Assembly (NCBI GenBank): GCA_021783175.1
Contig: JAJXUF010000080.1
Location: 1 to 13,379 of the forward strand
Origin: Pseudomonadota bacterium
GTDB taxonomy: Bacteria > Pseudomonadota > Gammaproteobacteria > Acidiferrobacterales > UBA6901
Length of the DNA stretch: 13,379 bases
Direction of reading: 5' to 3'
In this document: piece after piece, positions 731-13,379 of the stretch
Numbering within the stretch: the first letter of the stretch is position 1
Layout of the letters: the number at the start of each line of letters is the position of its first letter
Position numbers and translations under genes: made by a program
The notes under the pieces: generated by a model
What the model saw: only the letters and a program-made list of their open reading frames with translations
Databases searched by the model: none
What the model was told of the DNA's origin: nothing

Positions 731-965
731 ATCCGCTGTCTCACAGGGGGACTTAGATTTCTGGGTTAGCCTCACATTCGGGGACTTGGGCATATCGATC
801 GGCACACGGGGCCGATGCTGCTTCTGTTGCACATTAGTATAACTCGGCCGACCGCCTCCCCGAATATCGCGCTTCATTACTGGGCCTCTCCTCGGGGGTA
901 AGTGCGATTGCCCTGAACTGCCGACAGCCGGACAAATCCCGACTCGCGACATGATAAGTCGACTG

Positions 966-994
966 TTGACAGGCGCTCCAATAAACACTAAAGT
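966..994 (+). promoter_or_regulatory. Sigma70-type promoter of the dehydrogenase/ETF operon
   Basis: A perfect -35 hexamer TTGACA (966-971) is followed by a 17-base spacer and TAAAGT (989-994), which matches four of six bases of the -10 consensus. Transcription would start near base 1001, about 50 bases before the ATG at 1050. The conserved operator motif begins directly after the -10 box, a position expected for repression. Confidence 0.62.
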
Positions 995-1017
995 TTGTCT
1001 GATGAACGGATAAACGT
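993..1017 (+). promoter_or_regulatory. Probable operator of the GntR/FCD regulator, upstream of the dehydrogenase operon
   Basis: The core TTGTCTGATGAAC (995-1007) occurs exactly again upstream of the regulator gene (7380-7392). Over 25 bases (993-1017 against 7378-7402) 20 positions are identical. This copy also has imperfect dyad symmetry, GTTTGTC-N9-GATAAAC (993-1015). It covers the expected transcription start of the 966-994 promoter, so binding should repress. That the GntR protein at 6598-7371 binds here is inference. Confidence 0.55.
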
Positions 1018-1049
1018 AACATCGGTTAAACTCTGATAAGGGGACGAGC

Positions 1050-2711
1050 ATGGCAGACGCATCGTATGACGCGATAGTTATAGGCGGTGGGCACCACGCG
1101 ACTATCATTTCCTGTTATCTCGCCAAGGCGGGCTTACAGGTGGCTGTGCTGGAAGGGCACACCGGGCTGGGCGGAGGAGCGGTCAGCGAGGAAGCGCCGG
1201 CACCGGGATTTCGCCAGAATCCGCACGCACATTTCACGCGTTTCTACGGTCATCCGGCTTATTCCGATTTCAACCTGCAAGAGGAGGGACTCGAATACGT
1301 TTTCCCGGAGCAGAACGAGGGCATGATCTTCGAGGACGGTTCTAGCTTCATCGGCTATTCGGCCTTCCGGGTGGTCGATCCCAAGACGGGCCGAACCGAA
1401 GAGTCGCCAGAGAATGTCCGCAAGACCTACGATCAGATCAAAGCATTCTCGCAACGCGACGCCGACATGTATTTGCGATTGTTCGAGCAGTACAAGAAAT
1501 ACTGGAAGAAGGCTTTTCATACCCACCGCTTCACTGCGCCGCCGCCCTGGGGCACGCCTGATGCACTGGAAGCGTTATGTGACATCCCCGACAGCGGAAT
1601 CGAGCCGGTCCACCAGTTCATGTCGGTGCGCCAGTGTGCTTACGACTTCTTCGAGAGCCCGGAGCTGCGCACGCTGTTCATGCGGGCTACGCCGACATCC
1701 GGTGGTTGTTTTCCAGACGACCCGATGGGGCTGCAGAGCCTGGTCCATGTCATGGGTCTGGTGCTGTCGTTCGAGCCCGCGGCGATCGTCAAGGGCGGCA
1801 CCCAGTCGATTACCGACGCACTGGTGAAGGTGGGGAAAAAGCTCGGCGTCCAGCATTTCACCGGTCACGAGGTAGATGAGATCATCGTCGAGAATGGCAG
1901 TGCGACCGGTGTAAAACTGGCCCGTGGCGGCGCCCTAAAAGCCCCACTGGTGATCTCTGACCTCGGCGTGCCGCAGACCTTCCTGCGTCTTCTGCGCAAT
2001 CACGCACTCGGCGACAGGCTGTTGCATAGGGTCAAGAACATTCATTACGACCGTGGCCAGATCTTCTGGGGCAACGTGGCGATGCATGAATTGCCCAAGT
2101 ACACCGCCGACAACATCAATCCGGGCGTCGGTTCGCAACCGCGCCTATACACCGGTGCCAAGGATCCAGAATATATGGCCAGCCGCTATCAGCACGACAT
2201 CTTCCTGCTCGGCTTTCCGCAACAGCCGTACATTCTGACCGCACCCGACAGCATCTGGGACAGGACCCGTGCGCCGGAAGGCAAGCACACCATTCTGATC
2301 GAAGATTTCACCGCGCCGGCGCGGTTGTTCTCGGCACGCGACTGGGGTCGCATCAAGGAGGAGTTCACCGATCGCGCGCTTGAGGAATGGCGCAAGTACG
2401 CCCCCAACATGACCAAGGACAACATCATCGGCGTACGCATCTACGGTCCTTACGACGTGCAGGCCGGCAAGCCCGATATGATCGAAGGTGGCTGGACGGA
2501 AGGATCGATGTTCGCCTCGCAACTCGGCCGCTTTCGGCCAACCCCGGAACTGTCAGGGTATCGCACGCCGATCAAGAATCTGTACATGTGCTCGTCCAAT
2601 CTGCATTCGGCCGGCGGTATCGGTCGTGGATCGAGCTATATCGCCTACAAGATCATCGCCCAGGACCGTTCATTAATGCGCATCTGGGAACAGGCCGGGC
2701 GCGAATTTTAA
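1050..2711 (+). CDS. FAD-dependent oxidoreductase, phytoene desaturase-like family
   Basis: A 553-residue flavoprotein, length typical of the phytoene dehydrogenase / NAD(P)/FAD-dependent oxidoreductase superfamily. The N-terminus has the Rossmann beta-alpha-beta unit (YDAIVIGGGHHA, residues 6-17) with the acidic ribose-binding residue E35 (VAVLEG) and a GLGGGAVSEE segment after it. The GxGxxG motif ends in Ala17 instead of Gly. The C-terminus (about 512-535) has the second FAD-binding strand, YMCSSNLHSAGGIGRG, where classical members have CG-x-STHPGGG. No signal peptide or membrane segment is seen. It is first in an operon with ETF beta and alpha 15 bases downstream, so electrons from its FAD very probably go to ETF rather than oxygen or NAD. 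Known ETF-linked relatives include, from memory, the limonene dehydrogenase CtmAB of Castellaniella defragrans, which hydroxylates a terpene without oxygen; carotenoid desaturation is unlikely because no carotenoid gene is nearby. The real substrate is unknown. Confidence 0.82.
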   Translation: MADASYDAIVIGGGHHATIISCYLAKAGLQVAVLEGHTGLGGGAVSEEAPAPGFRQNPHAHFTRFYGHPAYSDFNLQEEGLEYVFPEQNEGMIFEDGSSFIGYSAFRVVDPKTGRTEESPENVRKTYDQIKAFSQRDADMYLRLFEQYKKYWKKAFHTHRFTAPPPWGTPDALEALCDIPDSGIEPVHQFMSVRQCAYDFFESPELRTLFMRATPTSGGCFPDDPMGLQSLVHVMGLVLSFEPAAIVKGGTQSITDALVKVGKKLGVQHFTGHEVDEIIVENGSATGVKLARGGALKAPLVISDLGVPQTFLRLLRNHALGDRLLHRVKNIHYDRGQIFWGNVAMHELPKYTADNINPGVGSQPRLYTGAKDPEYMASRYQHDIFLLGFPQQPYILTAPDSIWDRTRAPEGKHTILIEDFTAPARLFSARDWGRIKEEFTDRALEEWRKYAPNMTKDNIIGVRIYGPYDVQAGKPDMIEGGWTEGSMFASQLGRFRPTPELSGYRTPIKNLYMCSSNLHSAGGIGRGSSYIAYKIIAQDRSLMRIWEQAGREF

Positions 2712-2726
2712 CGAGAGGAGAGCGGG

Positions 2727-3545
2727 ATGCGTGTCGTCGTCTGCCTCAAGCAGGTAATCGATCCACTGACGCCGGCGTCGACCTTGACGCTCGATCAAAA
2801 TGATAAAAAGATTCGCGTCGGCATTGTTGCGCCGCCGGTGATCAACGGATTCGACGAACAAGGGCTCGAGGCGGCATTGCGCCTGCGCGAGAAACGGAAA
2901 GATATCGAGATCGTCTGTCTGGCCGTTGGCGAGCGCTTCAACAGCGACGTGATGAAGCGCTCGCTGGCCGTTGGCGCCGATCAATTGATCCTCGTCCAGG
3001 ACGCCTCCCTCGACACCTGGGATCCCTATCCGATCGCCTCGGCTTTGGCAGCCGCCATTCGCCAGATCGGCGGCGCCGACCTGATCATTTGCGGGCGTCA
3101 GGGTTCCGACTGGGACAATGCGCTAACCCCCTACATTCTGGCCGATTTGCTGGCGCTGCCGCTGCTAAGCCTCGCCAAGCGCGTAGAGCTCAACGAGGGT
3201 AATCGGGTCGAGATCGAAAGAGTGCTCGCCGACGGTTCGATGATGATGAATGCGCCGCTGCCGGCGCTGGTGACGGTGACGAGCGAACTGGGCGCCTTGC
3301 GGATGCCGAGCGTCTCCGCGCGCCTGTCGGCGGCGCGCAAACAACCGCGTCAAATCGCCCTGGCCGACCTCGAGGTAAGCGCCGCACCGGTGCGAGCGCC
3401 GGAGGTGATCGACCTGGCGATTCCCGTCACCGGGCGAAGCTGTGCCTTCATCGAGGCCGCCGATGGGCCGGGTGCGGGTGCTCGCCTGGCCGAAACATTG
3501 TTGCAGGCCGGGGCGATCCGTCTCGGCGGGGAGAGCCAATCATGA
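2727..3545 (+). CDS. etfB: Electron transfer flavoprotein, beta subunit
   Basis: This is the small subunit of a soluble FAD/AMP heterodimer that carries electrons from flavin dehydrogenases to a quinone reductase. The 272-residue product has the family landmarks: MRVVVCLKQV at the start, INGFDEQGLEAALRL (39-53; family INPFDEYALEEALRL), the nucleotide segment LAVGADQLILV (80-90), the AMP-binding loop GRQGSDWDNALTPYILADLL (123-142) and TVTSELGALRMPS (183-195). The loop differs from the usual GRQAIDGD by GSDWD. A good ribosome site AGGAG lies six bases before ATG 2727, 15 bases after the dehydrogenase stop. Its stop codon overlaps the ATG of the alpha subunit (ATGA, 3542-3545), which indicates translational coupling and equal production. 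Its place between the FAD dehydrogenase and the membrane Fe-S protein makes it a dedicated ETF for this pathway rather than the housekeeping one. Confidence 0.9.
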   Translation: MRVVVCLKQVIDPLTPASTLTLDQNDKKIRVGIVAPPVINGFDEQGLEAALRLREKRKDIEIVCLAVGERFNSDVMKRSLAVGADQLILVQDASLDTWDPYPIASALAAAIRQIGGADLIICGRQGSDWDNALTPYILADLLALPLLSLAKRVELNEGNRVEIERVLADGSMMMNAPLPALVTVTSELGALRMPSVSARLSAARKQPRQIALADLEVSAAPVRAPEVIDLAIPVTGRSCAFIEAADGPGAGARLAETLLQAGAIRLGGESQS

Positions 3546-4522
3546 CCGGAATTCTGATAGTTGCCGAGGTCGATGCAGGCGAATTGCGACCGGATTTCAG
3601 AGAACTGATGACGGTGGCCAGAGCCATGTCCGCCACCGTTCCCGGCGGAATTGCCATCGCCCTCGTCGGCGCGAAACTGGAAGCGGCAACGCGTCAGGCG
3701 GCAAGGATCGGCGCCGATTCGCTGCACGTGATCGATGACGATCGTCTGGCCGATCCCTGGCCCGAAGCCCACGCCGCTGCCTTGATCCAATTGTGTGGCG
3801 AACTCTCCCCGAAGATGGTGATCGCTCCGCGCACGATACTCGGCGCCGAGATGGCGGCTCGTCTGGCGGTCCATTGCCGCTGGCAATTGGTTCAGGACGT
3901 GACCCAGATCGAAGCGACACCGGAAGGTGGCCTAAAATGCTTGAGGCCGGTTTCAGGCGGCGCCGTCGCCGCAACAGTGCGCGCAGGTGCTGGACCTTGG
4001 GTCGTGGTGCCGCGTCCGCGAGCCTTCACGCCGGACGAGACCGACACCGGCAGCAGCGTCGTCGCACCCGTACGCCACGCCTTCGAGCCGCCAGTGCTGG
4101 CGACGGTTTGTGAAGCACCTAAGCGCATTGCTGTCGAAGGCATCGGCATCGATCGAGCGAAGACGGTCATCGCCGGCGGCGGCGGACTCGGTGGCCCCGG
4201 GCCCTTTGGTTTGCTGCGCGAAATTGCCGATTTGCTAGGTGGCGCAGTGGGCGCGTCGCGCGTCGCGGTTGATTCCGGCTGGGTGCAAGCGTCTCTTCAG
4301 GTTGGCCTGACGGGCAAGACCATCGCCCCCGATCTGTATATCGCCGTCGGCATTTCCGGTGCGATTCAGCATCTGATCGGTTGCTCGTCAGCGCAGGTGA
4401 TCGTCGCGATCAATAGCGATGCCTCAGCGCCGATCTTCGGCATCGCCAATTATGGCGTCGTCGGTGATTGGAATGAAGTCATGCCGGCTTTCCGTGACGC
4501 ATTAGCCGGCCACGCTTCATGA
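3542..4522 (+). CDS. etfA: Electron transfer flavoprotein, alpha subunit
   Basis: The large ETF subunit binds the redox-active FAD. The 326-residue sequence has an N-terminal nucleotide-like domain (1-190, with LAVHCRWQLVQDVTQIE at 108-124) and the signature FAD domain from about 205: VIAGGGGLGG (209-218), GAVGASRVAVDSGW (234-247, with Arg240 matching the conserved FAD-contacting Arg), QVGLTGKTIAPDLYIAVG (253-270), ISGAIQH (271-277) and AINSDASAPIFGIANYGVVGDW (289-310). Leu256 sits where most ETFs have Gln in QVGQTGK, close to the flavin, while the following Thr257 and His277 are kept. The start codon overlaps the beta stop. The membrane Fe-S oxidoreductase begins 21 bases downstream. The single-FAD, AMP-type architecture and the quinone-reductase neighbour suggest an ordinary (non-bifurcating) ETF, but that is inference. 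Confidence 0.9.
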   Translation: MTGILIVAEVDAGELRPDFRELMTVARAMSATVPGGIAIALVGAKLEAATRQAARIGADSLHVIDDDRLADPWPEAHAAALIQLCGELSPKMVIAPRTILGAEMAARLAVHCRWQLVQDVTQIEATPEGGLKCLRPVSGGAVAATVRAGAGPWVVVPRPRAFTPDETDTGSSVVAPVRHAFEPPVLATVCEAPKRIAVEGIGIDRAKTVIAGGGGLGGPGPFGLLREIADLLGGAVGASRVAVDSGWVQASLQVGLTGKTIAPDLYIAVGISGAIQHLIGCSSAQVIVAINSDASAPIFGIANYGVVGDWNEVMPAFRDALAGHAS

Positions 4523-4543
4523 GTTCGGTGCGGCCAAGCTGAA

Positions 4544-6538
4544 ATGCCGATCGAAATATCCCTGAGATTAGCCGTCGTTATAGCGGCGCTCGTTGCTGCG
4601 GGACTCCGCTTCGGACGTCTGGCGCGTCCTCTGCTGGCTGCGCCAGCAGAGCCGCGGCTGAAACCATTCGCTCCGCGCGCATGGGGAGTACTGGTCAATA
4701 TATTAGGTCATGTGCGGCTGCTGCGAAAGCCTTACGCCGGGCTGCTGCACATGATGATGTTTTTCGGGTTTCTGTTTCTTCTCACAGCCGTAGTACAGAC
4801 CTTCGGCGCGGGCGTTTCACCGCTGTTTGCGCTTGCCAGGATCGGAGGATCGACCTGGATCGCACTCGGGCAGGATATTTTCGCGACCTTGCTGTTGGTC
4901 GCTGTCGCGATGGCCGCTTTTCAGCGTTTGGTGCTGGTGCCGTCGCGCTTCGAGGGATCTAACAAAGCCGACGCTGGGATCATCCTTGGCTTGGTCGCGG
5001 CGGTCGCTATCGGCCTGCTCCTTCAGAACGCCTGTTACATCGTTGGCGGTGATCCTTCGGCGGCGTGGCGACCGGTCAGTTCAATTCTGGCGACACTGCT
5101 TCGCTGGCTGGGCATGACCGGGCCGGCCGCGAAAGTCGGCGCGACGGCATTCGCCTGGCTGCACATGCTGGCCATCCTGGTTTTTCTTATCTACATTCCA
5201 GGCTCCAAGCATCTTCATGTGTTCGTTGGCATTCCCAACCTCTATTTGCGCGACCTCCAGCCGGCAGGACGGCTCACCACGCCCGATCTCGAACAGCCGG
5301 CGCTCGGCCTCTCGAAAGTCAGTCAGCTCGGCCGCAAGCAAGTGCTCGACCTCTACGCCTGTACCGAATGCGGGCGCTGTCAGGAAATGTGTCCAGCCTA
5401 CGCCTCGGGCAAGCCGTTGAGCCCGAAGCTGCTGATCATGAATTTACGCGACCATCTTTGGGAGCAACGGGACGGGGGAGATGGGGATGATACCGGCGGC
5501 GCACTGATCGGCAATGCCATCAAGGAAGAAACGATCTGGTCATGCACCACCTGCCGCGCTTGCATGGAGGCCTGCCCGCTGTTCATCGAACACGTGCCCA
5601 AGATCATTGACATGCGCCGGTATCTGGCGATGGAGGCCGGAAGCGTTCCCGATGGAATCTCGGGCGCGACGCTGTCGATAGAGCAAAGAGGCCATCCCTG
5701 GGCTGGGACAAGATTCTCCCGCCTGGACTGGTGCCGCGACCTCGATATTCGCGTGCTCAAGCCAGGAGAGGCTACCGACACGCTGCTGTGGGTTGGCTGT
5801 ACTGCAGCCTTGGATGCGCGTGCGCAGAAGGTCGTGCGCTCCCTGGTGCGCCTGCTGCGTGCGGCAAAGGTGGATTTCGCCATCCTCGGCGACGACGAGA
5901 AGTGCACGGGCGACGTCGCACGCCGCACCGGCAACGATTATCTCTTCCAAATGCAGGCGGCGGCCAATATCGAGACGCTCAATGCTCGGACGTTCAGGCA
6001 AATTGTCAGTGTCTGTCCTCACTGCGTAAACACGCTGAAGAATGAATATTCAGAATTCGGTGGCACTTACCAGGTTGCCCATCATACCCAGTTGCTGGCG
6101 GAGTTGATGGAAACTGGTCGCCTGCCTCAACTGCAGAAGAGCGAGGCGGGCACCATTACCTTCCACGATCCCTGCTACCTCGGTCGCTACAACGGAGAAT
6201 TTGCTGCGCCCCGTGCGGTCCTCTCGGCTGCGGGTGCGACCCTTGCCGAGATGAAGCGCACTCGCGGACAGTCGTTTTGCTGCGGCGGTGGCGGTGGGCG
6301 TTCATTCGCGATTGAACCACCGGATCAGCGCGTCAACGTCATTCGCGCCCGGCAGGCGCGCGAAACGGGGGCGCCGGTGCTTGCCACTGCCTGCCCGTTT
6401 TGCCTGTTGATGCTCGAGGACGGTTGCAAGGCGGCAGCGAGACAGGAGGACGGTGGAGTTCAGACCCAGCAGGTTCGCGATATCGCCGAAATCCTCGTCG
6501 AGTCCATGCCCGGTGGCGGCGCAGGAGTGGTCTTGTGA
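4544..6538 (+). CDS. Membrane (Fe-S) ETF:quinone oxidoreductase-like protein (cytochrome b-like + 2x[4Fe-4S] + 2xCCG)
   Basis: This 664-residue fusion most likely takes electrons from the adjacent ETF and passes them to the quinone pool. Residues 1-230 carry about six hydrophobic segments (near 6-22, 68-88, 108-132, 143-166, 176-190, 203-219) with histidines suited to haem b (H56, H69, H207, H223, H225), resembling the NarI/HdrE membrane domain. Two classical [4Fe-4S] motifs follow, CTECGRCQEMCP (C273, 276, 279, 283) and CTTCRACMEACP (C334, 337, 340, 344). Two CCG domains complete it: C419, C454, C491/C494 (SVCPHC) and C544 (HDPCYLGR), C579/C580 (FCCGGGGGR), C617/C620 (ACPFC). This layout is that of EMO-type ETF:menaquinone oxidoreductases and HdrD-like proteins. 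No clear Shine-Dalgarno site precedes ATG 4544, but the N-terminal hydrophobic segment supports that start; it lies 21 bases after the ETF alpha stop and may be coupled. It closes the operon and runs convergently into the regulator gene. Confidence 0.87.
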   Translation: MPIEISLRLAVVIAALVAAGLRFGRLARPLLAAPAEPRLKPFAPRAWGVLVNILGHVRLLRKPYAGLLHMMMFFGFLFLLTAVVQTFGAGVSPLFALARIGGSTWIALGQDIFATLLLVAVAMAAFQRLVLVPSRFEGSNKADAGIILGLVAAVAIGLLLQNACYIVGGDPSAAWRPVSSILATLLRWLGMTGPAAKVGATAFAWLHMLAILVFLIYIPGSKHLHVFVGIPNLYLRDLQPAGRLTTPDLEQPALGLSKVSQLGRKQVLDLYACTECGRCQEMCPAYASGKPLSPKLLIMNLRDHLWEQRDGGDGDDTGGALIGNAIKEETIWSCTTCRACMEACPLFIEHVPKIIDMRRYLAMEAGSVPDGISGATLSIEQRGHPWAGTRFSRLDWCRDLDIRVLKPGEATDTLLWVGCTAALDARAQKVVRSLVRLLRAAKVDFAILGDDEKCTGDVARRTGNDYLFQMQAAANIETLNARTFRQIVSVCPHCVNTLKNEYSEFGGTYQVAHHTQLLAELMETGRLPQLQKSEAGTITFHDPCYLGRYNGEFAAPRAVLSAAGATLAEMKRTRGQSFCCGGGGGRSFAIEPPDQRVNVIRARQARETGAPVLATACPFCLLMLEDGCKAAARQEDGGVQTQQVRDIAEILVESMPGGGAGVVL

Positions 6539-6597
6539 GCGCGTACGGCGTGATATCGAATGAGCGGCCGGGCGCGTTCGGTAAGACCAGGGCGTTT

Positions 6598-7371
6598 TCA
6601 GGACCCTCGGTTCTTGCGAGGACGTCGCGTCTGCGCTTTGCGTCCCGCAGCTTCTTGCTTCATGTCGGCGCCGCTCCCCTCGGGGGAATCAAGAACGATC
6701 TTGAGACCATGCCGCATATGTTGCTCGCTGGCGGCCATGGCCGCATTCGGGTCGTGATCGCGGATCGCGGCGAAGATTTTCTCGTGGTCCTCCAGCAAGG
6801 TCGTGTAATTCTCTGGATGACGACGCGAGAAACGTGTCGACTCGAAATAGAGGCTGCGCAACAGGAGCGTTGCAAGCAGGAGCGTCTGATTGCCGCTGGC
6901 GTCGGCGACCGCGGTGTGAAAATCCAACGACGTTTGGATGCTGGCGGCCTCGTTACCAATTGCTTTGCGGCCCGCTTCGATTGTGTCCCGAATACGACGA
7001 ATGCCTGCCGCATTGGCGCGCCTCGCCGCCATTGCGGCAATCAATGGTTCGAGGACAAGGCGTGCTTCGACAATGTCATTGATCAGGTCGGTACTGGTGA
7101 ACTCGGACCACTCCGTCAGCGCAAACAGCGGCGCAGTATTGATCAGGATAGTTCCTCGGCCCGGCTTCGCTTCGGTCACGCCGAGGATCTGAAACACGCG
7201 AAAGGCCTCGCGAATCGACGAGCGGCCGACTCCCAATTGTTCCGCCAAGACGGCCTCGGAAGGGAATTTGTCGCCCGGTTTGATCTTGCCGACTGCCACC
7301 AGGCGAGCGATCTCATGAACGATCGCCTTGGCCAGGGAAGCATTGCGGGTAATGGATATTTTAGCTAACAT
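6598..7371 (-). CDS. GntR-family transcriptional regulator, FCD (FadR C-terminal) subfamily
   Basis: A 257-residue local regulator. Residues about 12-76 are the winged helix: KIKPGDKFPSEAVLAEQLGVGRSSIREAFRVFQILGV followed by the wing AKPGRGT, near-consensus for GntR. Residues about 95-228 are an all-helical FCD ligand domain, with EARLVLEP (102-109), DFHTAVADASGN (150-161), H196 (EDHEKIFAAIRDHD) and H218. H152, H196 and H218 match the usual metal-binding histidines, but the Asp normally four residues before the first His is Ser148. The tail (233-257) is basic, probably disordered. It lies between the two plus-strand blocks, converging with the first and divergent from the second, and shares an operator-like motif with both. 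FCD proteins usually respond to carboxylates such as pathway acids or CoA-linked metabolites and often repress themselves; here that is inference. The start ATG 7371 is only seven bases from the motif's copy, so autorepression is plausible. Confidence 0.88.
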   Translation of the reverse strand: MLAKISITRNASLAKAIVHEIARLVAVGKIKPGDKFPSEAVLAEQLGVGRSSIREAFRVFQILGVTEAKPGRGTILINTAPLFALTEWSEFTSTDLINDIVEARLVLEPLIAAMAARRANAAGIRRIRDTIEAGRKAIGNEAASIQTSLDFHTAVADASGNQTLLLATLLLRSLYFESTRFSRRHPENYTTLLEDHEKIFAAIRDHDPNAAMAASEQHMRHGLKIVLDSPEGSGADMKQEAAGRKAQTRRPRKNRGS

Positions 7372-7377
7372 CGAATA

Positions 7378-7402
7378 GATTGTCTGATGAACATATTAAC
7401 TT
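7378..7402 (+). promoter_or_regulatory. Probable autoregulatory operator in front of the GntR/FCD gene
   Basis: TTGTCTGATGAAC (7380-7392) is identical to 995-1007, and the wider 25 bases match at 20 positions. It starts seven bases before the regulator's ATG (7371, minus strand), so it lies in its leader or core promoter. This is the usual arrangement for an FCD repressor that controls itself; binding has not been shown. Confidence 0.55.
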
Positions 7403-7425
7403 ATGTTTGCGAGGATGCGCGGGAA

Positions 7426-7477
7426 ATGCCAATTATTGAGGTCATTTCGAGAGATCCGGCAGCGTCTCAATTGGCAT
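7426..7477. repeat. Inverted repeat in the divergent control region
   Basis: ATGCCAATT (7426-7434) and AATTGGCAT (7469-7477) are perfect reverse complements 34 bases apart. The flanks ATTGAG (7435-7440) and CTCAAT (7467-7472) are also reverse complements. The arms are too far apart for a typical terminator; two half-sites for a second regulator, or a cruciform/looping site, are possible. Confidence 0.45.
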
Positions 7478-7509
7478 GAATTATATCAGCAAGCGGGGCT
7501 GGCTAAGCA

Positions 7510-7519
7510 GATTGTCTGA
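7510..7519 (+). promoter_or_regulatory. Partial operator motif upstream of the phosphotransferase operon
   Basis: GATTGTCTGA matches bases 7378-7387 exactly, but the second half (GTAATTAC) diverges from the full motif. It lies about 155 bases before ATG 7676. It may be a weaker site letting the same regulator act on the second block, or chance, since ten bases alone are modest evidence. Confidence 0.35.
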
Positions 7520-7675
7520 GTAATTACGGCATATTTATCCGAGTTGAGGAGTTGGCCTGAAGCGAAAAACTAACACCTTGTAGCGCACCAACACAAAAGG
7601 TTGTAGGAGACGCCAACACGGACGCTGCTCAAGCCGACGTGCTGGAATTCGAAGCAAACCAGAAAAGGAGGAGTG

Positions 7676-9388
7676 ATGGCGAACGTCAATGTGCAACATC
7701 GCGCGGCGAAACTATCGACGGCGGTTCCAGGCTTTGAATTCGACGAGGAGGCCGATCTGGCCCAATCGCCCGCATGGTTTCTCGATGGTACCCACTCCGT
7801 TCCGCCGTGGACCCCGCTGTTCGGTTGGTTCTGGATCAACTTCTGCCGACACGGGATGCAGTACGGTGCAGAAATGCTTTCGTTGCCTACCGTCAAGGGC
7901 TGGGACTGGAGATTCAAAAACGGCGGCGGCTACCTGACCTTGCTGCTGGTCAAAACCGAAGCGGAGCAACGGCAACGCGAGCAGCGCTTTCGTGTCGCGA
8001 TCCGGCCATTTATCGACGACTATGACGGTCTTTGGCGCAGCCAGCTCGACGAAATGTTGGGTCTTTATGAAGGCTTGAAAAAGCTCGATCTGGATAAAGC
8101 CAGCAATATCGAGGTTCTCGATAACTTCGAACAGACGATCAATGTCTGCCGGCGCATGTGGGAGGTGCACATGTACATGATGTACGGCACGTATACTGCC
8201 TACATCCTGTTCGAGAACATGTGCCGCGAGCTTCTGGGTATCGATGACACCCATCCGCTCTTCCACAAGCTCATCACCGGCTTCGACAACAAGGTGCTTC
8301 AAGTCGACAAGACGATATGGGAATTCTCCCAGAAGGCGTCAAAGTTGGGACTGGCAGAGGTCATTCTGCATAGCGAGCCCAAGGATATCGTGGCCAAGAT
8401 CGAGGCGGCACCGAACGGACATGCCTTCATGGAATCCTTCCGGGCGTTCCTGAACGAAGACGGCTGGCGCATGCAGCGAATGTCCGAAATGAATCTGCCC
8501 ACCTGGATTGAGGATCCAGCTCCTCCGCTCACCAACCTCAAGCAATTCCTGGTGAAAGGCGGCGGCTTCAATCTCGAGGATGAGCGTGAAAAGGTCAGTA
8601 AGGAGCGGGAAGCCGCCGAGAAGGAGGTTCTCGCCAAGGTGGCGCCAGAACAAAGAGGCTGGTTTACCACCTTGCTTCGACTGGCACAGAAGTCTGGCGT
8701 GTTCAGCGAGGAGCACGACCACTACCTCGACCTCTACACACACGCCATGATGCGGCGCTCGGCACTGGCGGTCGGTCGGCGACTTGCCGGTGGCGGCGCT
8801 ATCGATAGTGCAGAAGACATCTTCTTCATCATTCCGGACGAAATCCGCAAAGCGGCCATCAATCCGGATCAATTCAATCTGAGGCCTATTGTGGCCACTC
8901 GCCGTGCGGAATGGCAGGAGTGGTGCAAGACGCCGAATCCGCCGGTGATCCTGAGGGAAGGCTTTGACATGGACCAAGCGATGGGAGTGCTGGTCAAGTC
9001 GAACGACCCGATAGCCTTGAAGGTGGTGGTGGGTTCAATGCCGGTGGTCAGGCCGGAACTCAAGGCCGATCTGCACGGCACCTGCGGTTCTCCAGGGGTG
9101 ACGGAGGGACTGGCGCGCGTGATCATGAGCGAGGATCAACTGGCGGACGTTCAGCCAGGTGAAATTCTGATTGCGGCGACAACCTCTCCGAGCTGGACAC
9201 CGGTGTTCTCGTTTATCAAAGGGGTGGTCGTCGATCGGGGTGCCTCGTTGTCGCACGCGGCAATCGTCGGCCGCGAATACGGCATTCCTGTGCTGATGAA
9301 CGTGTTTGTCGGAACTCAGCAAATCAGGACGGGCCAGCGGATCCGGCTGGATGCCAACATGGGCGCTCTTTACATTCTCGACAAGTAG
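7676..9388 (+). CDS. Phenylphosphate synthase-like phosphotransferase, phosphohistidine/substrate subunit (PEP-utilising mobile domain)
   Basis: This 570-residue protein resembles PpsA of phenylphosphate synthase. The C-terminal ~110 residues are the swivelling PEP-utilising domain: GTCGSPGVTEGLARVI (468-483), QPGEILIAATTSPSWTPVF (493-511) and VVVDRGASLSHAAIVGREYG (517-536), with His527 the expected phosphohistidine. The N-terminal ~455 residues are mostly helical, rich in Trp, Tyr and Met (PPWTPLFGWFWINF at 43-56; MWEVHMYMMYGTY at 161-173), and should bind the phosphate acceptor, as the central domain does in rifampin phosphotransferase. The pyruvate/PEP TIM barrel of true PEP synthase is absent. 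Known relatives transfer the beta-phosphate of ATP via histidine to a hydroxyl, releasing AMP and phosphate. The ATP-grasp half is encoded by the next gene. ATG 7676 is preferred over GTG 7673 because AGGAGG (7666-7671) stands four bases before it but only one base before the GTG. The GG that usually precedes xxSH is GA here. The acceptor is unknown. Confidence 0.8.
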   Translation: MANVNVQHRAAKLSTAVPGFEFDEEADLAQSPAWFLDGTHSVPPWTPLFGWFWINFCRHGMQYGAEMLSLPTVKGWDWRFKNGGGYLTLLLVKTEAEQRQREQRFRVAIRPFIDDYDGLWRSQLDEMLGLYEGLKKLDLDKASNIEVLDNFEQTINVCRRMWEVHMYMMYGTYTAYILFENMCRELLGIDDTHPLFHKLITGFDNKVLQVDKTIWEFSQKASKLGLAEVILHSEPKDIVAKIEAAPNGHAFMESFRAFLNEDGWRMQRMSEMNLPTWIEDPAPPLTNLKQFLVKGGGFNLEDEREKVSKEREAAEKEVLAKVAPEQRGWFTTLLRLAQKSGVFSEEHDHYLDLYTHAMMRRSALAVGRRLAGGGAIDSAEDIFFIIPDEIRKAAINPDQFNLRPIVATRRAEWQEWCKTPNPPVILREGFDMDQAMGVLVKSNDPIALKVVVGSMPVVRPELKADLHGTCGSPGVTEGLARVIMSEDQLADVQPGEILIAATTSPSWTPVFSFIKGVVVDRGASLSHAAIVGREYGIPVLMNVFVGTQQIRTGQRIRLDANMGALYILDK

Positions 9389-9397
9389 ATGCGAATC

Positions 9398-9421
9398 GGC
9401 GGGCCGGGTAAACGGCCCGCC
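9398..9421 (+). terminator. GC-rich intercistronic hairpin between the two phosphotransferase genes
   Basis: GGCGGGCCG (9398-9406) pairs perfectly with CGGCCCGCC (9413-9421) around the six-base loop GGTAAA. There is no T-run after it, so full rho-independent termination is unlikely. It begins nine bases after the upstream stop codon and ends 30 bases before ATG 9452; it may stabilise the upstream message or lower expression of the downstream subunit. Confidence 0.6.
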
Positions 9422-9451
9422 TCGATTTCTGAAGCGATCAGGAGAGCGATG

Positions 9452-10483
9452 ATGGCGAAGAAGTGGATCTACGCGCTGGAAGAGCTTGGACAAGAGCATC
9501 TCGAGCTCGTCGGGAAGAAGTGCGCGAACCTGGGAGAGATGACCAAGCTCGGGATGCGTGTCCCCCCGGGATTCGCAATTTCGGTGGATGGTTTCGAGAA
9601 GTACATGCAAGTGACCGGGCTAGGCAAGCGTATCGAAAGTTATTTTGCGTCCCAGGGAGACGAGCTGAAGAAAAGTATCCAGAGGCAGATGGATGCTAGT
9701 CGGGTGGTGAAGGATCTGATCGCGGCAACGCCACTGCCCGAGGCTATGGCCGAAGAAATCGAGAAAAACTACGAGGCGCTCTGCCGCCGCTGTGGTGAAG
9801 CGGAATTGCCCGTAGCTGTTCGCTCGAGCGGTTCGGTGAGCATGCCTGGTCAGATGGAGACCTACCTCTATGTCCGGGGCAGTTCGGAAGTGACGCGCAG
9901 AGTGCTCGAGGTTTGGGAGAGTACATTCAATACCCGAGCCATTGCCTTCCGCCTGGAAAAGGGAATGCCGGTGGATAAGGCGCCCATCGGTGTTGCCGTC
10001 ATCAAGATGGTCAACGCCAAGAGCGCCGGCGTGGTCCTGACCGTGGTCCCGACTAACGGCGACGAAGACAACGTGGTCATAGAGGGTAACTGGGGCCTGG
10101 GCGAAAGCGTGGTGAGCGGCGACATCACTCCCGATAACTTTATTGTCAATAAAGCGAATCTGGAAATTGAACGCAAGCTGAGCAAGAAAACCAAGTGGGT
10201 CGTAGCGACGGGCAACGGCACCATCAAAGCGGATGTTCCTTTGCCTCTTCAGGAGATGCCCTGTCTGGAAGACGAGGAAATCCGCGAACTCGTCCGTATC
10301 GCACTGAATGTCGAGAAGCACTTCGGCGTACCGCAGGACATGGAATGGGTGGTGGATCGAGACCTGCCCTTTCCGGAGAACGTGATCTGGGTGCAGGCGC
10401 GCCAGGCCAAGTACACCCCGAAACGGAAGGATGCCGATGCCGACTACCTTGTAGACCAGATGACGAGACTCTTTCGCAGGTAA
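9452..10483 (+). CDS. Phenylphosphate synthase-like phosphotransferase, ATP-binding subunit (PPDK/PEP synthase N-terminal domain)
   Basis: This 343-residue protein is the ATP-grasp half of the split dikinase, comparable to PpsB of phenylphosphate synthase. Landmarks follow the PEP synthase N-domain in order: LVGKKCANLGEMTKLGMRVPPGFAIS (split over 19-44; family VGGKNASLGEM), VAVRSSGSVSMPGQMETYL (121-139, with the ATP-binding Arg124), NWGLGESVVSGDITPDNFIV (213-232), FGVPQDMEWVVD (291-302, metal/ATP Glu298) and VIWVQARQAKY (311-321, matching LQARP). It should bind ATP and pyrophosphorylate His527 of the upstream protein. The SGSVSMPGQ segment replaces the SATAEDLP-type loop of PEP synthase, as I recall for PpsB. 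ATG 9452 is preferred: AGGAG (9440-9444) lies seven bases upstream, whereas the open frame from 9389 would run through the GC-rich hairpin and adds a non-conserved Arg-rich leader. ATG 9449 is the close alternative. Confidence 0.82.
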   Translation: MAKKWIYALEELGQEHLELVGKKCANLGEMTKLGMRVPPGFAISVDGFEKYMQVTGLGKRIESYFASQGDELKKSIQRQMDASRVVKDLIAATPLPEAMAEEIEKNYEALCRRCGEAELPVAVRSSGSVSMPGQMETYLYVRGSSEVTRRVLEVWESTFNTRAIAFRLEKGMPVDKAPIGVAVIKMVNAKSAGVVLTVVPTNGDEDNVVIEGNWGLGESVVSGDITPDNFIVNKANLEIERKLSKKTKWVVATGNGTIKADVPLPLQEMPCLEDEEIRELVRIALNVEKHFGVPQDMEWVVDRDLPFPENVIWVQARQAKYTPKRKDADADYLVDQMTRLFRR

Positions 10484-10536
10484 GCCCCGCAGGGTGACGA
10501 GTCGGAAGTATCGTGTCCAGAAGCTGACTCTTGGAA

Positions 10537-10556
10537 TGTCTTTTTAGACAAGGAGG
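10537..10556 (+). promoter_or_regulatory. Small palindrome and strong ribosome site before the duplicated-domain gene
   Basis: TGTCT-TTTT-AGACA (10537-10550) is a perfect 5-base inverted repeat directly joined to the Shine-Dalgarno sequence AAGGAGG (10550-10556), four bases before ATG 10561. The ribosome site fixes the start at 10561 rather than the upstream TTG at 10531. Any regulatory role of the palindrome is speculative. Confidence 0.4.
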
Positions 10557-10560
10557 ACCC

Positions 10561-11220
10561 ATGGCAGTTCTTTTTAATCAGCATTGGGATTTGGCCCCTG
10601 GCAAGCAACAGGCCTATTCCGACTTCCTGATGGCTTACTACAATCCGACGCTGAGCAAGATCGGCATCGAGCTGGTTGGCGGATACTACGTGACCGTGGG
10701 CATGGGTCCCAGAATCATTGCCGTTGGCCTGGCTCAGAGCCTGCTCGAACTCGAAGGGGCTCTCGCTTCTGCCGAGTTCGAGGATGTTACCAATCGGCTG
10801 ATGGAGTTCGTGACGCACTATCACAGCAAGATTCTCATCCCGACTGGCCGGGTGAAGATGGACGGCTACAAGGTTCAGACGGGGCTTTGGAAATTCAATC
10901 AGTACTGGAACATCGTTCCAGGTTATGAAAAACAGTATTCGGAATTTGTCACCGGTGACTTCATTCCCACGTTGGAGAAGATTGGCCTTGCTGTGCCGGC
11001 AGGATGGCGAGTCGTCGTCGGGTCGGGGCCCTATATTTTGGCCGAGGCTTCCGCCACAAATCTCATCGACATTGCCCGGGCGATCGACACCGACGAATTC
11101 CGGCGGGTGACGCTCAAGCTCAAAGGAACGTACGTGACGGACTATCACAGCAGAATCTTGGCGCCTACCGGTCGAATCGACCTGCCCATTTTCATGAAAG
11201 AGATGATGGCGAACTTCTGA
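10561..11220 (+). CDS. Tandem-duplicated ~100-residue domain protein, possible dimeric alpha/beta-barrel fold, function unknown
   Basis: This 219-residue protein consists of two clear copies of one domain: FNQHWDLAPGKQQAYSDF (5-22) against FNQYWNIVPGYEKQYSEF (112-129), PTLSKIGI against PTLEKIGL, and YHSKILIPTGRV (87-98) against YHSRILAPTGRI (195-206), at a constant offset of 107-108 residues. Each copy alternates strand and amphipathic helix and ends in the invariant YHS-[KR]-IL-x-PTGR, with H88/H196 as possible functional residues. Spacing and strand-helix pattern recall the ferredoxin-like dimeric alpha/beta barrel families (NIPSNAP/ABM-like), so one chain could mimic a dimer; this is inference. 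No signal or membrane segment is seen. It follows the phosphotransferase genes, where phenol-degrading bacteria carry the CBS-domain subunit PpsC, but it has no CBS features. It may be an accessory subunit, a small-molecule binder or an isomerase/lyase for the phosphorylated intermediate. Confidence 0.75.
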   Translation: MAVLFNQHWDLAPGKQQAYSDFLMAYYNPTLSKIGIELVGGYYVTVGMGPRIIAVGLAQSLLELEGALASAEFEDVTNRLMEFVTHYHSKILIPTGRVKMDGYKVQTGLWKFNQYWNIVPGYEKQYSEFVTGDFIPTLEKIGLAVPAGWRVVVGSGPYILAEASATNLIDIARAIDTDEFRRVTLKLKGTYVTDYHSRILAPTGRIDLPIFMKEMMANF

Positions 11221-11265
11221 AAACATCGTTCGCCAAGAGCCTGCACCGTAGCGCGAGGAACCAGC

Positions 11266-12699
11266 ATGGAATTCTTCATCGATGGAAAATGGCGGCCGTC
11301 AGCCACTGCGCGGACGATGCCGGTGGTCAACCCGGCGACGGGCGAAACGGTCGATCGGGTACCGCTCGGCAATGGCGAGGATGCAGATCAGGCCATAGTC
11401 TCGGCGGCAAACGCATTCAGACATTGGCGCAAGGTGTCGATGGCCCGGCGAGCAAAGTTGCAGCACGCAGCCGCACAGCGGTTGCGCGATCGGGCCGACG
11501 AGTTTTCTCATTTGCTCACTTTGGAATTGGGACGACCACTTGCCGGCGCCAAGGTGGAGATCGAGCGATCTGCAGACTTGCTCGACTACTTCGCCGAAGA
11601 GGGGCTTCGCCTGCGCGGCGAGATTCCGATGATAAACGAGGAACACGAACGGGTATTGGTCGTCAGAGAGCCGATGGGCGTTGTGGTCGCCATTGCCCCG
11701 TTCAACTATCCGATTACGCTGCTTACTTTCAAGTTGGGCGCGGCGCTGATGACCGGCTGCACCGTAGTCGCAAAACCCGCCTCCGATACGCCGCTCACGA
11801 CGCTTTTACTGGCTGAATTGTTTTTTCAGGTGGGCTATCCGCCAGGCGTGTTCAATGCACTTACCGGATCCGGCGGGGAACTTGGCCGGGCGCTTGTGGA
11901 GCACCCGACACCGAGGAAAATTGGCTTTACGGGCAGCAGTCCGGCGGGTAAACGTATCGCGGCCATGGCCGCTGCCACCAATAAGCGGATCACCCTGGAG
12001 ATGGGCGGCCAGTCCGCAGCGATCGTTTGCGCGGATGCCAATCTCGATGTCGCCATTCCGGCATTGGTGAGGCATTCCTTTGCCAACAGCGGGCAGTTTT
12101 GCTATCGGGTCAACCGGATCTACGTCGAGCGAGGGATCTATCAGAACTTCATCGATCGCTTTGGCATGGGCGCGGCGGCATTAAAGGTCGGCAACGGTTT
12201 GAATCCCGGCTGTGATCTGGGGCCGATGGTCAACGAGGAGATCTTCAGCACCAGCGTGGATCATGTCGCAGACGCGCTTGCAAAGGGCGCGAAACTGATG
12301 GCCGGGGGGACACGCCTGTCCGGCGGCGACTATGATCGCGGTTTTTTCTTCCCGCCGACGGTGCTCGTCGATACGAATCCGGCCATGAAGATCATGAGAG
12401 AGGAAACCTTTGGTCCCGTGGTCGGGGTGATGCCGTTCGATTCCTTGTCCGAGGCCATCGAAATGGCCAACGACTCGCCATTCGGTCTTGCCGGCTACGT
12501 CTTCAGCAACGACCTGGCCGTGGCGCTGCGCGTGTCGGAGGAACTTGAGGCAGGCTCGGTGTGGGTCAACGACATTCATCGTTCTTACAATATGGTGCCC
12601 TTCGGCGGCTACAAGGAAAGCGGGCTTGGACGAGAAAAATCCCACTACGGCCTGGAAGCGTACTTGGAATTGAAGACCATCTATCTTTCGACAGCGTGA
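11266..12699 (+). CDS. NAD(P)-dependent aldehyde dehydrogenase
   Basis: This 477-residue cytosolic ALDH-superfamily enzyme oxidises an aldehyde to an acid (or acyl product). All catalytic elements are present: Asn147 in IAPFNYP, cofactor-binding Lys170 in VAKPASDTP, the FTGSSPAGKRI turn (221-231), general base Glu245 in LEMGGQS, nucleophile Cys279 in SGQFCYR, EETFGPV (379-385) and PFGGYKESGLGRE (445-457). Ser173 stands where NAD-specific enzymes carry Glu (KPAS rather than KPAE), as in the NADP-using GabD group, so NADP use is possible. Overall motifs resemble the succinate-semialdehyde / vanillin / phenylacetaldehyde-type group, but the substrate cannot be assigned. It starts 45 bases after the duplicated-domain gene with GAGGAA ahead of ATG 11266. 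No alcohol dehydrogenase is in view, so its aldehyde must come from a step encoded elsewhere or from the flavoprotein. Confidence 0.9.
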   Translation: MEFFIDGKWRPSATARTMPVVNPATGETVDRVPLGNGEDADQAIVSAANAFRHWRKVSMARRAKLQHAAAQRLRDRADEFSHLLTLELGRPLAGAKVEIERSADLLDYFAEEGLRLRGEIPMINEEHERVLVVREPMGVVVAIAPFNYPITLLTFKLGAALMTGCTVVAKPASDTPLTTLLLAELFFQVGYPPGVFNALTGSGGELGRALVEHPTPRKIGFTGSSPAGKRIAAMAAATNKRITLEMGGQSAAIVCADANLDVAIPALVRHSFANSGQFCYRVNRIYVERGIYQNFIDRFGMGAAALKVGNGLNPGCDLGPMVNEEIFSTSVDHVADALAKGAKLMAGGTRLSGGDYDRGFFFPPTVLVDTNPAMKIMREETFGPVVGVMPFDSLSEAIEMANDSPFGLAGYVFSNDLAVALRVSEELEAGSVWVNDIHRSYNMVPFGGYKESGLGREKSHYGLEAYLELKTIYLSTA

Positions 12700-12706
12700 T
12701 GGTCCG

Positions 12707-12793
12707 ATGAGAAAACTCACCCTATTTATCGAAGACGAAACGATTTCCCAGGCAAACGAAACCCGCGGTCTAGGGGGCGACGCATATGAATGA
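12707..12793 (+). CDS. Possible small ORF (28 aa) between aldehyde dehydrogenase and HD gene
   Basis: ATG 12707 opens a 28-codon frame (MRKLTLFIEDETISQANE... ending at TGA 12791-12793) that overlaps the HD gene start by eight bases. No good Shine-Dalgarno site precedes it and no family is recognised. It could be a leader peptide coupling translation of the HD gene, a remnant of a larger protein, or chance. The same eight-base overlap is seen at the next gene junction (13366/13373). Confidence 0.2.
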   Translation: MRKLTLFIEDETISQANETRGLGGDAYE

Positions 12794-13373
12794 AAAGCAC
12801 TATACCGTCTACCTGCATGCGCGCGAGTTTTGGAATTCTCGCTTCAACGACATCCATGTGCCACTGGCTTACCTGCATGCGCGGGAATTGCTTCTTTCGT
12901 ATCCGACCGCCGATGCAGATGTGGTTATACCCGCTATTCTTCTGCATGACGTCGGCTGGAAATCGATCCCCGAGGAAGATCAAGGGCGAGCGTACGGCCC
13001 CACCGTGGAGGATGAGTCGCTGCGGCGGCTCCATGAGATCGAGAGCGTGCGCATAGCCACGGAAATATTATCTGCCGTCAACTACGACCCGCGCAAGCTT
13101 GAGAAGATCGTACACATCATCGATGGACACGACACGCGGACGGAGTCGCTTTCACAGGAGGATTCCTTGGTGAAGGACGCAGATAAATTATGGCGTTTCA
13201 CGCCCGTCGGTGTTGATTACCACCACATTCAATTCGGCAAACCGCTCGCCGAGTACGTGGCATGGCTCGGGCAGCAAATTGACCGCTGGTTTTTCACTGA
13301 GCGAGGCAAGCAGATGGCTAGGAGAGCGATGGCAGAGGTTCAGCGTGCGGTATCGGAGGCCGGCCATGTCTGA
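12786..13373 (+). CDS. HD-domain metal-dependent phosphohydrolase
   Basis: This 195-residue protein has the ordered residues of the HD superfamily: His in HVPLAYLHARELL (H24 or H31), the name-giving His54-Asp55 in ILLHDVGWKS, His83 (RLHEIES), a second HD at 115-116 (IIDGHD) and Asp131/Asp133 in VKDADKLWRFTP. These bind one or two divalent metals and normally hydrolyse phosphomonoesters, nucleotides or cyclic dinucleotides. There is no GYP motif and no partner domain, so c-di-GMP hydrolysis is unlikely. Its position in the same operon as an ATP-dependent hydroxyl phosphotransferase makes a role on the phosphorylated intermediate (dephosphorylation or elimination) or clearing of a side product attractive, but that is inference. 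ATG 12786 has a G-rich but imperfect ribosome site. YLHARE occurs twice (9-14 and 29-34). It overlaps the next gene by eight bases. Confidence 0.8.
   Translation: MNEKHYTVYLHAREFWNSRFNDIHVPLAYLHARELLLSYPTADADVVIPAILLHDVGWKSIPEEDQGRAYGPTVEDESLRRLHEIESVRIATEILSAVNYDPRKLEKIVHIIDGHDTRTESLSQEDSLVKDADKLWRFTPVGVDYHHIQFGKPLAEYVAWLGQQIDRWFFTERGKQMARRAMAEVQRAVSEAGHV
12810..12883 (+). repeat. Short direct repeat inside the HD gene
   Basis: TACCTGCATGCGCG is present at 12810-12823 and again at 12870-12883, exactly 60 bases apart and in frame, so both copies encode YLHAR followed by Glu. Only the second should fall in the HD helix that supplies the first metal-binding His. A small in-frame duplication or chance convergence are both possible. 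Confidence 0.5.
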
Positions 13374-13379
13374 AGCGAG
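13366..13379 (+). CDS. Start of a further operon gene (cut by window edge)
   Basis: ATG 13366 lies six bases after a good ribosome site GGAGG (13355-13359) and overlaps the HD gene stop by eight bases, which is typical of a translationally coupled operon gene. Only the first four codons (MSEA) are visible, so no function can be given. Confidence 0.5.

Follow-up and report, generated by a model that had tools for sequence, protein, structure and literature searches.

Do two neighboring operons, one for a flavoprotein dehydrogenase with its electron carriers and the other for a split phosphotransferase with an aldehyde dehydrogenase, serve one pathway, and what would that pathway degrade? This question is raised by a stretch of 13,379 bases from a Pseudomonadota bacterium (GCA_021783175.1, contig JAJXUF010000080.1, positions 1 to 13,379), called the window here. 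The window contains two operons on the plus strand and one regulator gene on the minus strand between them. With middling confidence, we propose from sequence comparison that the operons are co-regulated and make up a catabolic branch that works without oxygen and acts on a hydroxylated aromatic compound, most probably a cresol-type alkylphenol. The observations behind this reading are the gene content, the co-occurrence of the two blocks, a common operator, the replacement of enzymes in the same slot, and the neighborhood of phenol-pathway genes; from these we infer the rest of the scheme. All genes named in the initial annotation were recovered at their spans by open reading frames, Pfam, and NCBIfam. 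Related loci and genomes are denoted by L and G numbers. The genes are as follows.

1050..2711, plus strand: phytoene-desaturase-like FAD dehydrogenase (FADox), the proposed C-H oxidizing enzyme (DAO/NAD_binding_8)
2727..3545, plus strand: electron transfer flavoprotein (ETF) beta subunit, etfB (PF01012, 91.2 bits), starting 15 bp after FADox
3542..4522, plus strand: ETF alpha subunit, etfA (PF00766, 102.6 bits; PF01012, 101.3 bits), with a 4 bp overlap with etfB
4544..6538, plus strand: membrane 4Fe-4S/CCG protein (FeSQ), a proposed ETF:quinone oxidoreductase, with five hydrophobic segments and two CxxCxxCxxxC motifs
6598..7371, minus strand: GntR/FCD regulator, divergent from ppsA' (PF07729, 84.8 bits; PF00392, 47.3 bits)
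7673..9388, plus strand: ppsA', acceptor-binding and swivel subunit of a two-component dikinase (PEP-utilizers; alternative ATG at 7676)
9389..10483, plus strand: ppsB', ATP-grasp subunit (PPDK_N, 286.5 bits; ATP-grasp motifs intact)
10561..11220, plus strand: tandem dimeric alpha/beta-barrel protein (dup), with duplicated halves and a predicted fold
11266..12699, plus strand: aldehyde dehydrogenase, ALDH (PF00171, 537.5 bits; GQFC and EMGG motifs with Cys and Glu)
12786..13373, plus strand: HD-domain hydrolase, a proposed phosphatase (PF01966, 31.0 bits, cut-off 22; two HD dyads)
13366..13379, plus strand: opening 14 bases of a further gene that is truncated at the window edge, predicted to encode a short-chain dehydrogenase (SDR) by comparison with L020

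The genes of the first operon (FADox-etfB-etfA-FeSQ) are separated by 15, −4, and 21 bases and those of the second (ppsA'-ppsB'-dup-ALDH-HD) by 0 to 86 bases. The 14 bases at 13366-13379 overlap the HD stop codon. The same overlap was seen in L020, where the order ppsA'-ppsB'-dup-ALDH-HD is followed by an SDR that is 81% identical to that of L007, and by this comparison the truncated gene probably encodes an SDR. The Pfam and NCBIfam scans of the ten window proteins found no oxygenase, no P450, and no molybdenum enzyme, which supports the oxygen-independent character suggested initially.

Kinase and FADox genes were found together in many other genomes. Contigs were scanned with 13 aligned kinase-A proteins, and 66 loci were recovered, of which 64 are titled as metagenome-assembled genomes and two belong to strain NaphS2. 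Loci that extend 5 kb beyond ppsA' in both directions, 33 in all, are called wide loci. FADox at 45% identity or more (45-100%) was present in 39 of the 66 loci, counting truncated matches at contig ends, and in 27 of the wide loci. All 10 chosen kinase genomes contain FADox. Whole genomes were compared at E ≤ 1e-80 for ppsA' and E ≤ 1e-100 for FADox. G062 contains the deltaproteobacterial locus L042, and its phylum (297 genomes, G062 included) had ppsA' in 18 genomes and FADox in 17, and 16 had both (Fisher 2e-23, kinship ignored). The exceptions were G184, with a partial kinase near a contig end, G211, with a 34% kinase paralogue, and G330, with FADox. In G330 only about 500 bp of contig remain beyond the SDR, so that a kinase could have been lost at the contig end. 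Some of the 16 shared genomes count through paralogues: G272 and G309 have kinases at 39% and 42% and FADox at 43% and 48%. In the phylum of G001 (299 genomes, G001 included), whose G001 matches L001, titled Proteobacteria, both genes were in the same two genomes, G001 and G555. Among 61 genomes around G001, the sole kinase orthologue was that of G001 (99%; next best 29%), and thus the cluster is accessory.

The initial annotation had allowed that the two blocks might occur independently; the co-occurrence speaks for one pathway, and the same gene neighborhood, which it proposed to look for, was found in records of five phylum labels (Pseudomonadota, Actinomycetes, Chloroflexi, Bacillota, and Deltaproteobacteria/Desulfobacterales). 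Chance or unrelated neighbors were rejected as an explanation on the basis of the co-occurrence and the operators described below. In G676, one stretch contains FeSQ, etfA, etfB, FADox, SDR, an ARMT1-like gene, two ppsA paralogues (36% and 40%), ppsB, a PaaK-type ligase, an aldehyde oxidoreductase (AOR), and HD. The cluster of G356 is on two contigs (L119 and L120), one with ppsA'-dup-HD-AOR-PaaK and the other with a FADox pair beside phenol genes. Kinase paralogues (31-47%) were found in G255, G168, G213, G223, G295, and G263, and the first five also have a second FADox. The kinases of the NaphS2 loci show 38-44% identity, and in L060 they are accompanied by relatives of FeSQ and ETF (30-36%); within the NaphS2 stretches read, no FADox was found. 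At 7531-13895 of L061, a kinase B and a pair of kinase-A paralogues (38% and 43%) adjoin an oxidoreductase that resembles old yellow enzyme by eye.

The blocks also share a regulatory site, located as follows.

993..1007, no strand assigned: operator GTTTGTCTGATGAAC, 42 bp before FADox
7378..7392, no strand assigned: second operator GATTGTCTGATGAAC, a motif match in the gntR-ppsA' intergenic region
7512..7519, plus strand: third TTGTCTGA half-site, before ppsA', also in L001

The half-site TTGTCTGA occurs at 995, 7380, and 7512, three times against 0.28 expected, and none of 200 shuffles reached three. The longer TTGTCTGATGAAC has exact copies at 995 and 7380; when as many as three mismatches were allowed, it gave seven matches against 2.9 expected, a number reached in 2 of 200 shuffles. 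The palindrome GTTTRTCNGAYRAAC, with up to two mismatches, matched solely before FADox and gntR/ppsA' in the window, L002, L003, L004, and L005, while 0 to 0.75 matches were expected per shuffled sequence. Because this pattern was drawn from the same sequences against which it was matched, its placement weighs more than its score. The contig of L006 begins within FADox, and its single match, on one strand, is at the gntR end. In the Actinomycetes loci L066 and L054 the operator precedes FADox; the L054 match is weak, and that locus has another elsewhere. Thus the shared motif reported initially is real, being enriched as a half-site and conserved as a palindrome at both promoters in relatives, and the co-regulation of the two blocks is supported. 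The conservation of the site is observed; the GntR/FCD protein would control both promoters by binding the palindrome.

What kind of kinase does the second operon encode? PPDK_N is alone in 9389-10483 and PEP-utilizers alone in 7673-9388, so that the ATP-grasp subunit is separate from the acceptor and swivel subunit. The swivel histidine, His528 in GASLSHAAIVGREYG, is invariant across 13 aligned proteins. PpsA' is 26% identical to the phenylphosphate synthase PpsA of Azoarcus KH32C, and PpsB' is 37% identical to KH32C PpsB. More broadly, PpsA' is 25-27% identical to the PpsA proteins of KH32C, G173, and G356, a Rhizobium Hpe-type protein (assigned from its carboxylase and HAD neighbors), and a Rhodococcus protein, while these are 42-63% identical among themselves. 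The three PpsA proteins of KH32C, G173, and G356 are 58-63% identical to each other and 25-26% identical to PpsA'. In a kinase tree of 26 rows the clades were separated with 100/98 support; some long branches (Thermomicrobium, Pas-like) are uncertain. Given the 25-27% identity and the separate clade, PpsA' is of the PpsAB kind, but it is not a phenylphosphate synthase proper. The initial description of the kinase as PpsAB-like therefore holds for homology and fails for membership of the PpsAB clade.

Compared with phenylphosphate synthase PpsAB(C) and its phenol pathway, the window shares the split dikinase with a swivel His and an ATP-grasp subunit, and relatives have phenol genes on the same contig. 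In contrast, the window kinase (26% for A, 37% for B) belongs to a separate clade and lacks a CBS subunit and a carboxylase: gene calls and Pfam found no genes for the CBS third subunit or phenylphosphate carboxylase in the window, while both are present in KH32C. A plain phenol operon was rejected, since the window has no Ppc genes and its kinase is in a different clade. PasAB, which acts on aniline in Desulfatiglans anilini, is likewise a two-component, distant PpsAB relative with an aromatic acceptor, according to the accessible text of its paper (PMC7500099). However, Pas acts with Ppc subunits, and the G255 protein that gene order marks as Pas-like is only 30% identical to that of the window, so that identity with PasAB was also rejected. 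A search of a plasmid collection gave only matches under 60% identity. A Thermomicrobium roseum plasmid (L088) has separate PEP-utilizing and PEP/pyruvate-binding genes at 2430-14775 together with Tm-1-like, ABM-family, and xanthine-dehydrogenase-family genes; it is another, deeply branching relative of such clusters.

The substrate class is suggested by the neighborhood, since phenol-pathway genes were on the FADox contig in six genomes (G062, G063, G069, G173, G330, G356). In G173, the FADox-kinase genes adjoin a canonical phenol operon with ppsA (63% to KH32C PpsA), ppsB, ppcB, and an AMP-ligase, and also, by eye, UbiX and a CBS protein. In G062, ppcB, ppcA, UbiD, and UbiX (by eye) precede the cluster. 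G069 is a close relative (FADox 92%) with a regulator of XylR_N and V4R domains directly before FADox, called PheR-like because it is 70% identical to the regulator beside KH32C pps-ppc; PpsA (79%), PpsB (75%), ppcB, and UbiX are about 7 kb downstream of its SDR. The G063 contig has a canonical phenol operon, and on it FADox is separated by about 4 kb from an Hcr-like enzyme and by about 8-13 kb from boxABC; BoxA, BoxB, and BoxC score above their cut-offs, and the Hcr-like enzyme scores 889 bits against 994.6. A run of pps-ppc-ligase-Hcr genes in G330 is closed by HD-FADweak-FADox-SDR. In G356, the FADox pair is on a contig with PpsA (58% to KH32C) and ppcB, where a dup homologue (41%) adjoins the canonical ppsA. 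Strong ppcB was present in 14 of 18 kinase genomes and 31 of 279 others (Fisher 9e-10, kinship ignored).

These ppcB counts would also fit a kinase that supplies a phenylphosphate carboxylase encoded elsewhere, which would carboxylate the ring of a substituted phenol or aniline. There is a precedent in D. anilini, where PasAB, equally distant from PpsAB, draws on Ppc subunits from two clusters (PMC7500099). However, the separate canonical operons of G063, G069, and G173, on the same contigs as the cluster, have their own PpsAB, a ppc/UbiD match was found in only 2 of 66 loci (up to 10 kb on either side, many cut by contig ends), and the Pas-like protein is distant and on a long branch. BoxB and HcrA are above cut-off in G555, a genome given as 100% complete, but it has no strong ppcB, and thus the cluster does not need the carboxylase. 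We consider this role very unlikely.

The canonical pps-ppc operons near FADox and SDR in G330, G173, and G069 also raise the question of whether an alicyclic or other precursor is aromatized, with FADox and SDR dehydrogenating a cyclic alcohol or ketone to a phenol that the adjacent operon carboxylates. This would leave the cluster's own kinase, aldehyde oxidizer, and phosphatase without a role, and the lack of strong ppcB in G555 also speaks against it; such a function is highly improbable.

BoxB was above cut-off in 4 of 9 genomes, G001 not among them, and Hcr was above the model cut-off in 3 of 45. At E ≤ 1e-100, Hcr was found in 23 of 25 cluster-related genomes (not in G001 or G064) and in 5 of 20 others; this contrast is biased, since the family is broad and the 20 comparison genomes were taken from listed ppcB negatives, and Hcr is a weak marker. 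Box is an oxygen-using route, and thus the window does not have to come from a strictly anaerobic lineage. Near HD in G555 (L115, G555:C59, 2357-3544) are a gene that resembles a Rieske-type oxygenase by eye and one for a binding protein. The only NCBIfam match of the Rieske-type gene was a methylsterol monooxygenase below threshold, and its presence suggests an aerobic or facultative host.

What the other enzymes would do is indicated by the slots they fill in relatives. Slots were labelled by tblastn with representative proteins, most of them identified by Pfam and a few by eye. The 33 wide loci contain SDR (28), ETF (14), dup (23), a PaaK-type ligase (7), and UPF0261 (16). The aldehyde-oxidation slot is filled by ALDH in 7, a tungsten AOR in 12, and a molybdenum hydroxylase in 9, with at least one of the three in 26 loci. 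Similarly, the phosphatase slot is filled by HD in 18, an ARMT1-like protein in 9, and a HAD protein in 2, again with at least one in 26. Since unrelated families fill each slot, the pathway likely includes aldehyde oxidation and phosphate hydrolysis; this is the strongest internal argument for these two reactions. The initial annotation had cited elimination of a phosphate as a chemical precedent. Phosphorylation fits, but three unrelated phosphatase families favor hydrolysis over a leaving group, as in the Cre and Hpe pathways.

The Cre pathway for 4-cresol in Corynebacterium glutamicum consists of the kinase CreHI, the P450 CreJEF, the alcohol dehydrogenase CreG, the aldehyde dehydrogenase CreC, and the phosphohydrolase CreD, as the available text describes (PMC7764795). 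The window has the same set of parts, a two-component kinase, a C-H oxidizing module, alcohol and aldehyde dehydrogenases, and a phosphohydrolase, with the SDR represented by its first 14 bases and HD taken as the phosphohydrolase. It differs in having a FADox/ETF/Fe-S module in place of the P450, and its kinase is in a separate clade, as judged through PpsA and Hpe-type relatives rather than CreH. Thus the window would work like Cre but is not Cre. The hydroxyphenylethanone pathway (HpeHI, HpeCBA, HpeD) also phosphorylates a phenol, and a dedicated phosphatase later removes the phosphate (PMC9618137, in the part available). Unlike Hpe, which has a biotin-dependent carboxylase in between, the window has none, and has a flavoprotein and an aldehyde oxidizer instead.

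By analogy, PpsA'B' would take the phosphoryl group of ATP and pass it via His528 to the phenolic hydroxyl. FADox would then remove a hydride or hydrogen from the side-chain carbon, where water would give an alcohol, and the electrons would pass through EtfAB to the membrane Fe-S protein and on to quinone. The SDR just beyond the window would turn the alcohol into an aldehyde, and ALDH (a tungsten AOR or molybdenum enzyme in relatives) would turn this into an acid. The HD hydrolase (an ARMT1-like or HAD protein in relatives) would remove the phosphate, and a coenzyme A (CoA) ligase would feed the hydroxyaryl acid into hydroxybenzoyl-CoA/benzoyl-CoA metabolism.

Gene content cannot fix the order of these reactions. 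FADox might instead oxidize the free alkylphenol, like p-cresol methylhydroxylase (PCMH), and PpsA'B' might phosphorylate a later hydroxy intermediate, for example to hold or trap it. A flavoprotein of Aromatoleum does oxidize free p-cresol, and that route converges at 4-hydroxybenzoyl-CoA (PMC10715001, as far as the accessible text goes). However, the kinase acts first in both Cre and Hpe, and the Hpe phosphatase acts after the next step (PMC9618137, PMC12167813, PMC7764795; available portions). FADox also matches models other than those expected for PCMH, and thus a quinone-methide mechanism is not implied. The other order is unlikely, though we leave it some weight, and we favor phosphorylation before oxidation over the reverse order of the initial annotation.

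Flavoproteins are known to hydroxylate limonene with water (CtmAB) or to desaturate a steroid side chain (Delta24-SD) without O2 (PMC4109377, PMC11061730; seen in part), and benzylic oxidation by FADox is therefore chemically plausible. CtmAB has been placed with the phytoene dehydrogenases (PMC4109377), while the available text on Delta24-SD denies a similarity to phytoene desaturase (PMC11061730). The likeness of FADox to both, as FAD/flavin oxidoreductases of activated C-H bonds, is by description, not by sequence. By contrast with CtmAB, which uses a ferredoxin and its reductase (PMC4109377, accessible part), the window has a single FADox with ETF and a membrane Fe-S protein. The benzene flavoprotein of BzS1 was rejected as a FADox equivalent, as it belongs to the VAO/PCMH family (PMC13416013, accessible part).

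These flavoproteins suggest another substrate, a terpenoid or a sterol side chain, in which FADox would desaturate or hydroxylate an allylic carbon and the kinase would make a leaving group of an aliphatic alcohol for elimination. FADox is indeed of the phytoene-desaturase kind: its best NCBIfam models were carotenoid enzymes, all below threshold (CrtO, 152.7 bits against a cut-off of 1000). Flavin attached covalently to a histidine is a feature of the CtmAB/Delta24-SD group; in the FADox alignment (38 rows), no histidine except His15 reaches 95% conservation. An additional flavoprotein that shares about 30% identity with FADox is present in 22 of the 66 loci and recalls the paired subunits of CtmAB (27% between subunits) and Delta24-SD (26%) (PMC4109377, PMC11061730; in part); the window has one FADox and no such pair. 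The relative L020 is labelled Sterolibacterium. Rifampin phosphotransferase, among the kinase relatives, acts on a non-phenolic hydroxyl. The ATP-dependent sterol side-chain cascade combines molybdenum C25/C26 dehydrogenases with a kinase and a phosphosteroid lyase; no molybdenum enzyme was found in the window, but DMSO-reductase-type molybdoproteins (by eye) are near the cluster in G344, G255, L056, and L058. This family also includes sterol and benzylic hydroxylases. Against a terpene or sterol, phenol, Hcr-like, and Box genes are on the same contigs as the cluster (no search was made for steroid or terpene genes), and the three phosphatase families fit hydrolysis better than elimination. 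Together with the PheR-like gene, this makes the phenolic part of the hydrophobic substrates proposed initially (terpenes, sterols, phenols) the better supported one and the terpene/sterol part the less supported; we regard the latter as quite unlikely. DMSO-reductase-type genes, again by eye, are located near FADox-kinase clusters at 2400-4484 in L108, 4345-6408 in L110, 3444-5492 in L056, and 5681-7861 in L058.

Several points weigh against an alkylphenol pathway made up of the two blocks. Its substrate, reaction order, and enzyme activities are predictions from gene content and homology. The acceptor of PpsA' could be non-phenolic, given its 25-27% identity to phenolic kinases. The nearest characterized flavoproteins in the literature, CtmAB and Delta24-SD, act on terpenes and sterols, and the DMSO-reductase-type proteins near the cluster would also suit hydroxylation of other C-H bonds. 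Six of the 33 wide loci gave no FADox match (L009, L010, L011, L039, L061, L063), though L010 has FADox elsewhere in its genome, as does G356, taken as the genome of L009, and the Fisher test of co-occurrence has no phylogeny correction. The GTTTRTCNGAYRAAC scan gave no operator match in L007 or L055. No phosphatase was found in 7 of the 33 wide loci, no aldehyde oxidizer in 7, and no SDR in 5; this may be partly a matter of distance and partly evidence against the scheme. Five of the 25 given genomes lack strong ppcB, with only distant matches in G555 (31%) and G213 (32%) and none in G001, G064, and G263. Finally, the proposed scheme assigns no function to dup or to the UPF0261 protein.

The halves of dup are 43% identical over 97 columns, and no Pfam or NCBIfam match was found at 0.001. 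Its structure was predicted from 36 sequences with a mean confidence (pLDDT) of 92.3, while a model from one sequence alone gave 33.5. The predicted fold matches 2pgc, putative ABM-type monooxygenases, and relatives of chlorite dismutase and coproheme decarboxylase. In this model dup is a tandem dimeric alpha/beta barrel, and its function is not deducible from the fold alone. UPF0261 (Tm-1-like) proteins occur in 20 of the 66 kinase loci and in L107, L143, L151, and L152, where they accompany phenol, aniline-type, and FADox clusters. L143 (G255:C56) has the order ppsB-UPF0261-AMP ligase-ppsA-ppcB with a molybdenum enzyme and resembles the aniline (ani) cluster of Desulfatiglans anilini.

Of the remaining sequence, positions 4-730 encode part of a protein that runs off the left end.

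4-730, minus strand: part of a membrane sensor-like protein (by eye), with no Pfam match at 0.01

An Rfam scan of the window found nothing above the gathering score. The true start of ppsB' may be near 9450, since similarity to its homologues begins about 20-30 residues in.

No paper describing FADox/ETF with a split kinase was found in the literature searched, most subscription journals being outside its reach, in agreement with the initial statement that no described pathway has both. Two O2-free solutions for the methyl group of phenols are known, namely PCMH, for which a para hydroxyl is mandatory (PMC13416013), and fumarate addition (PMC4148979), both as given in the accessible text. We tentatively suggest, as a possibility somewhat short of an even chance, that the cluster represents a widespread O2-free pathway (five phyla by record labels) in which a phosphate masks the phenol and a flavoprotein/ETF system hydroxylates the alkyl group with water, including meta and ortho cresols barred from a quinone methide. 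Paralogous copies of kinase and flavoprotein, several per genome, would then serve different phenolics. If so, the phosphate-masked flavoprotein route would be a third O2-free solution for the methyl groups of phenols and an O2-free counterpart to a P450 system, the closest known pathway, Cre, requiring oxygen. It could also account for the use of cresols and other alkylphenols by uncultured sulfate reducers and syntrophs.

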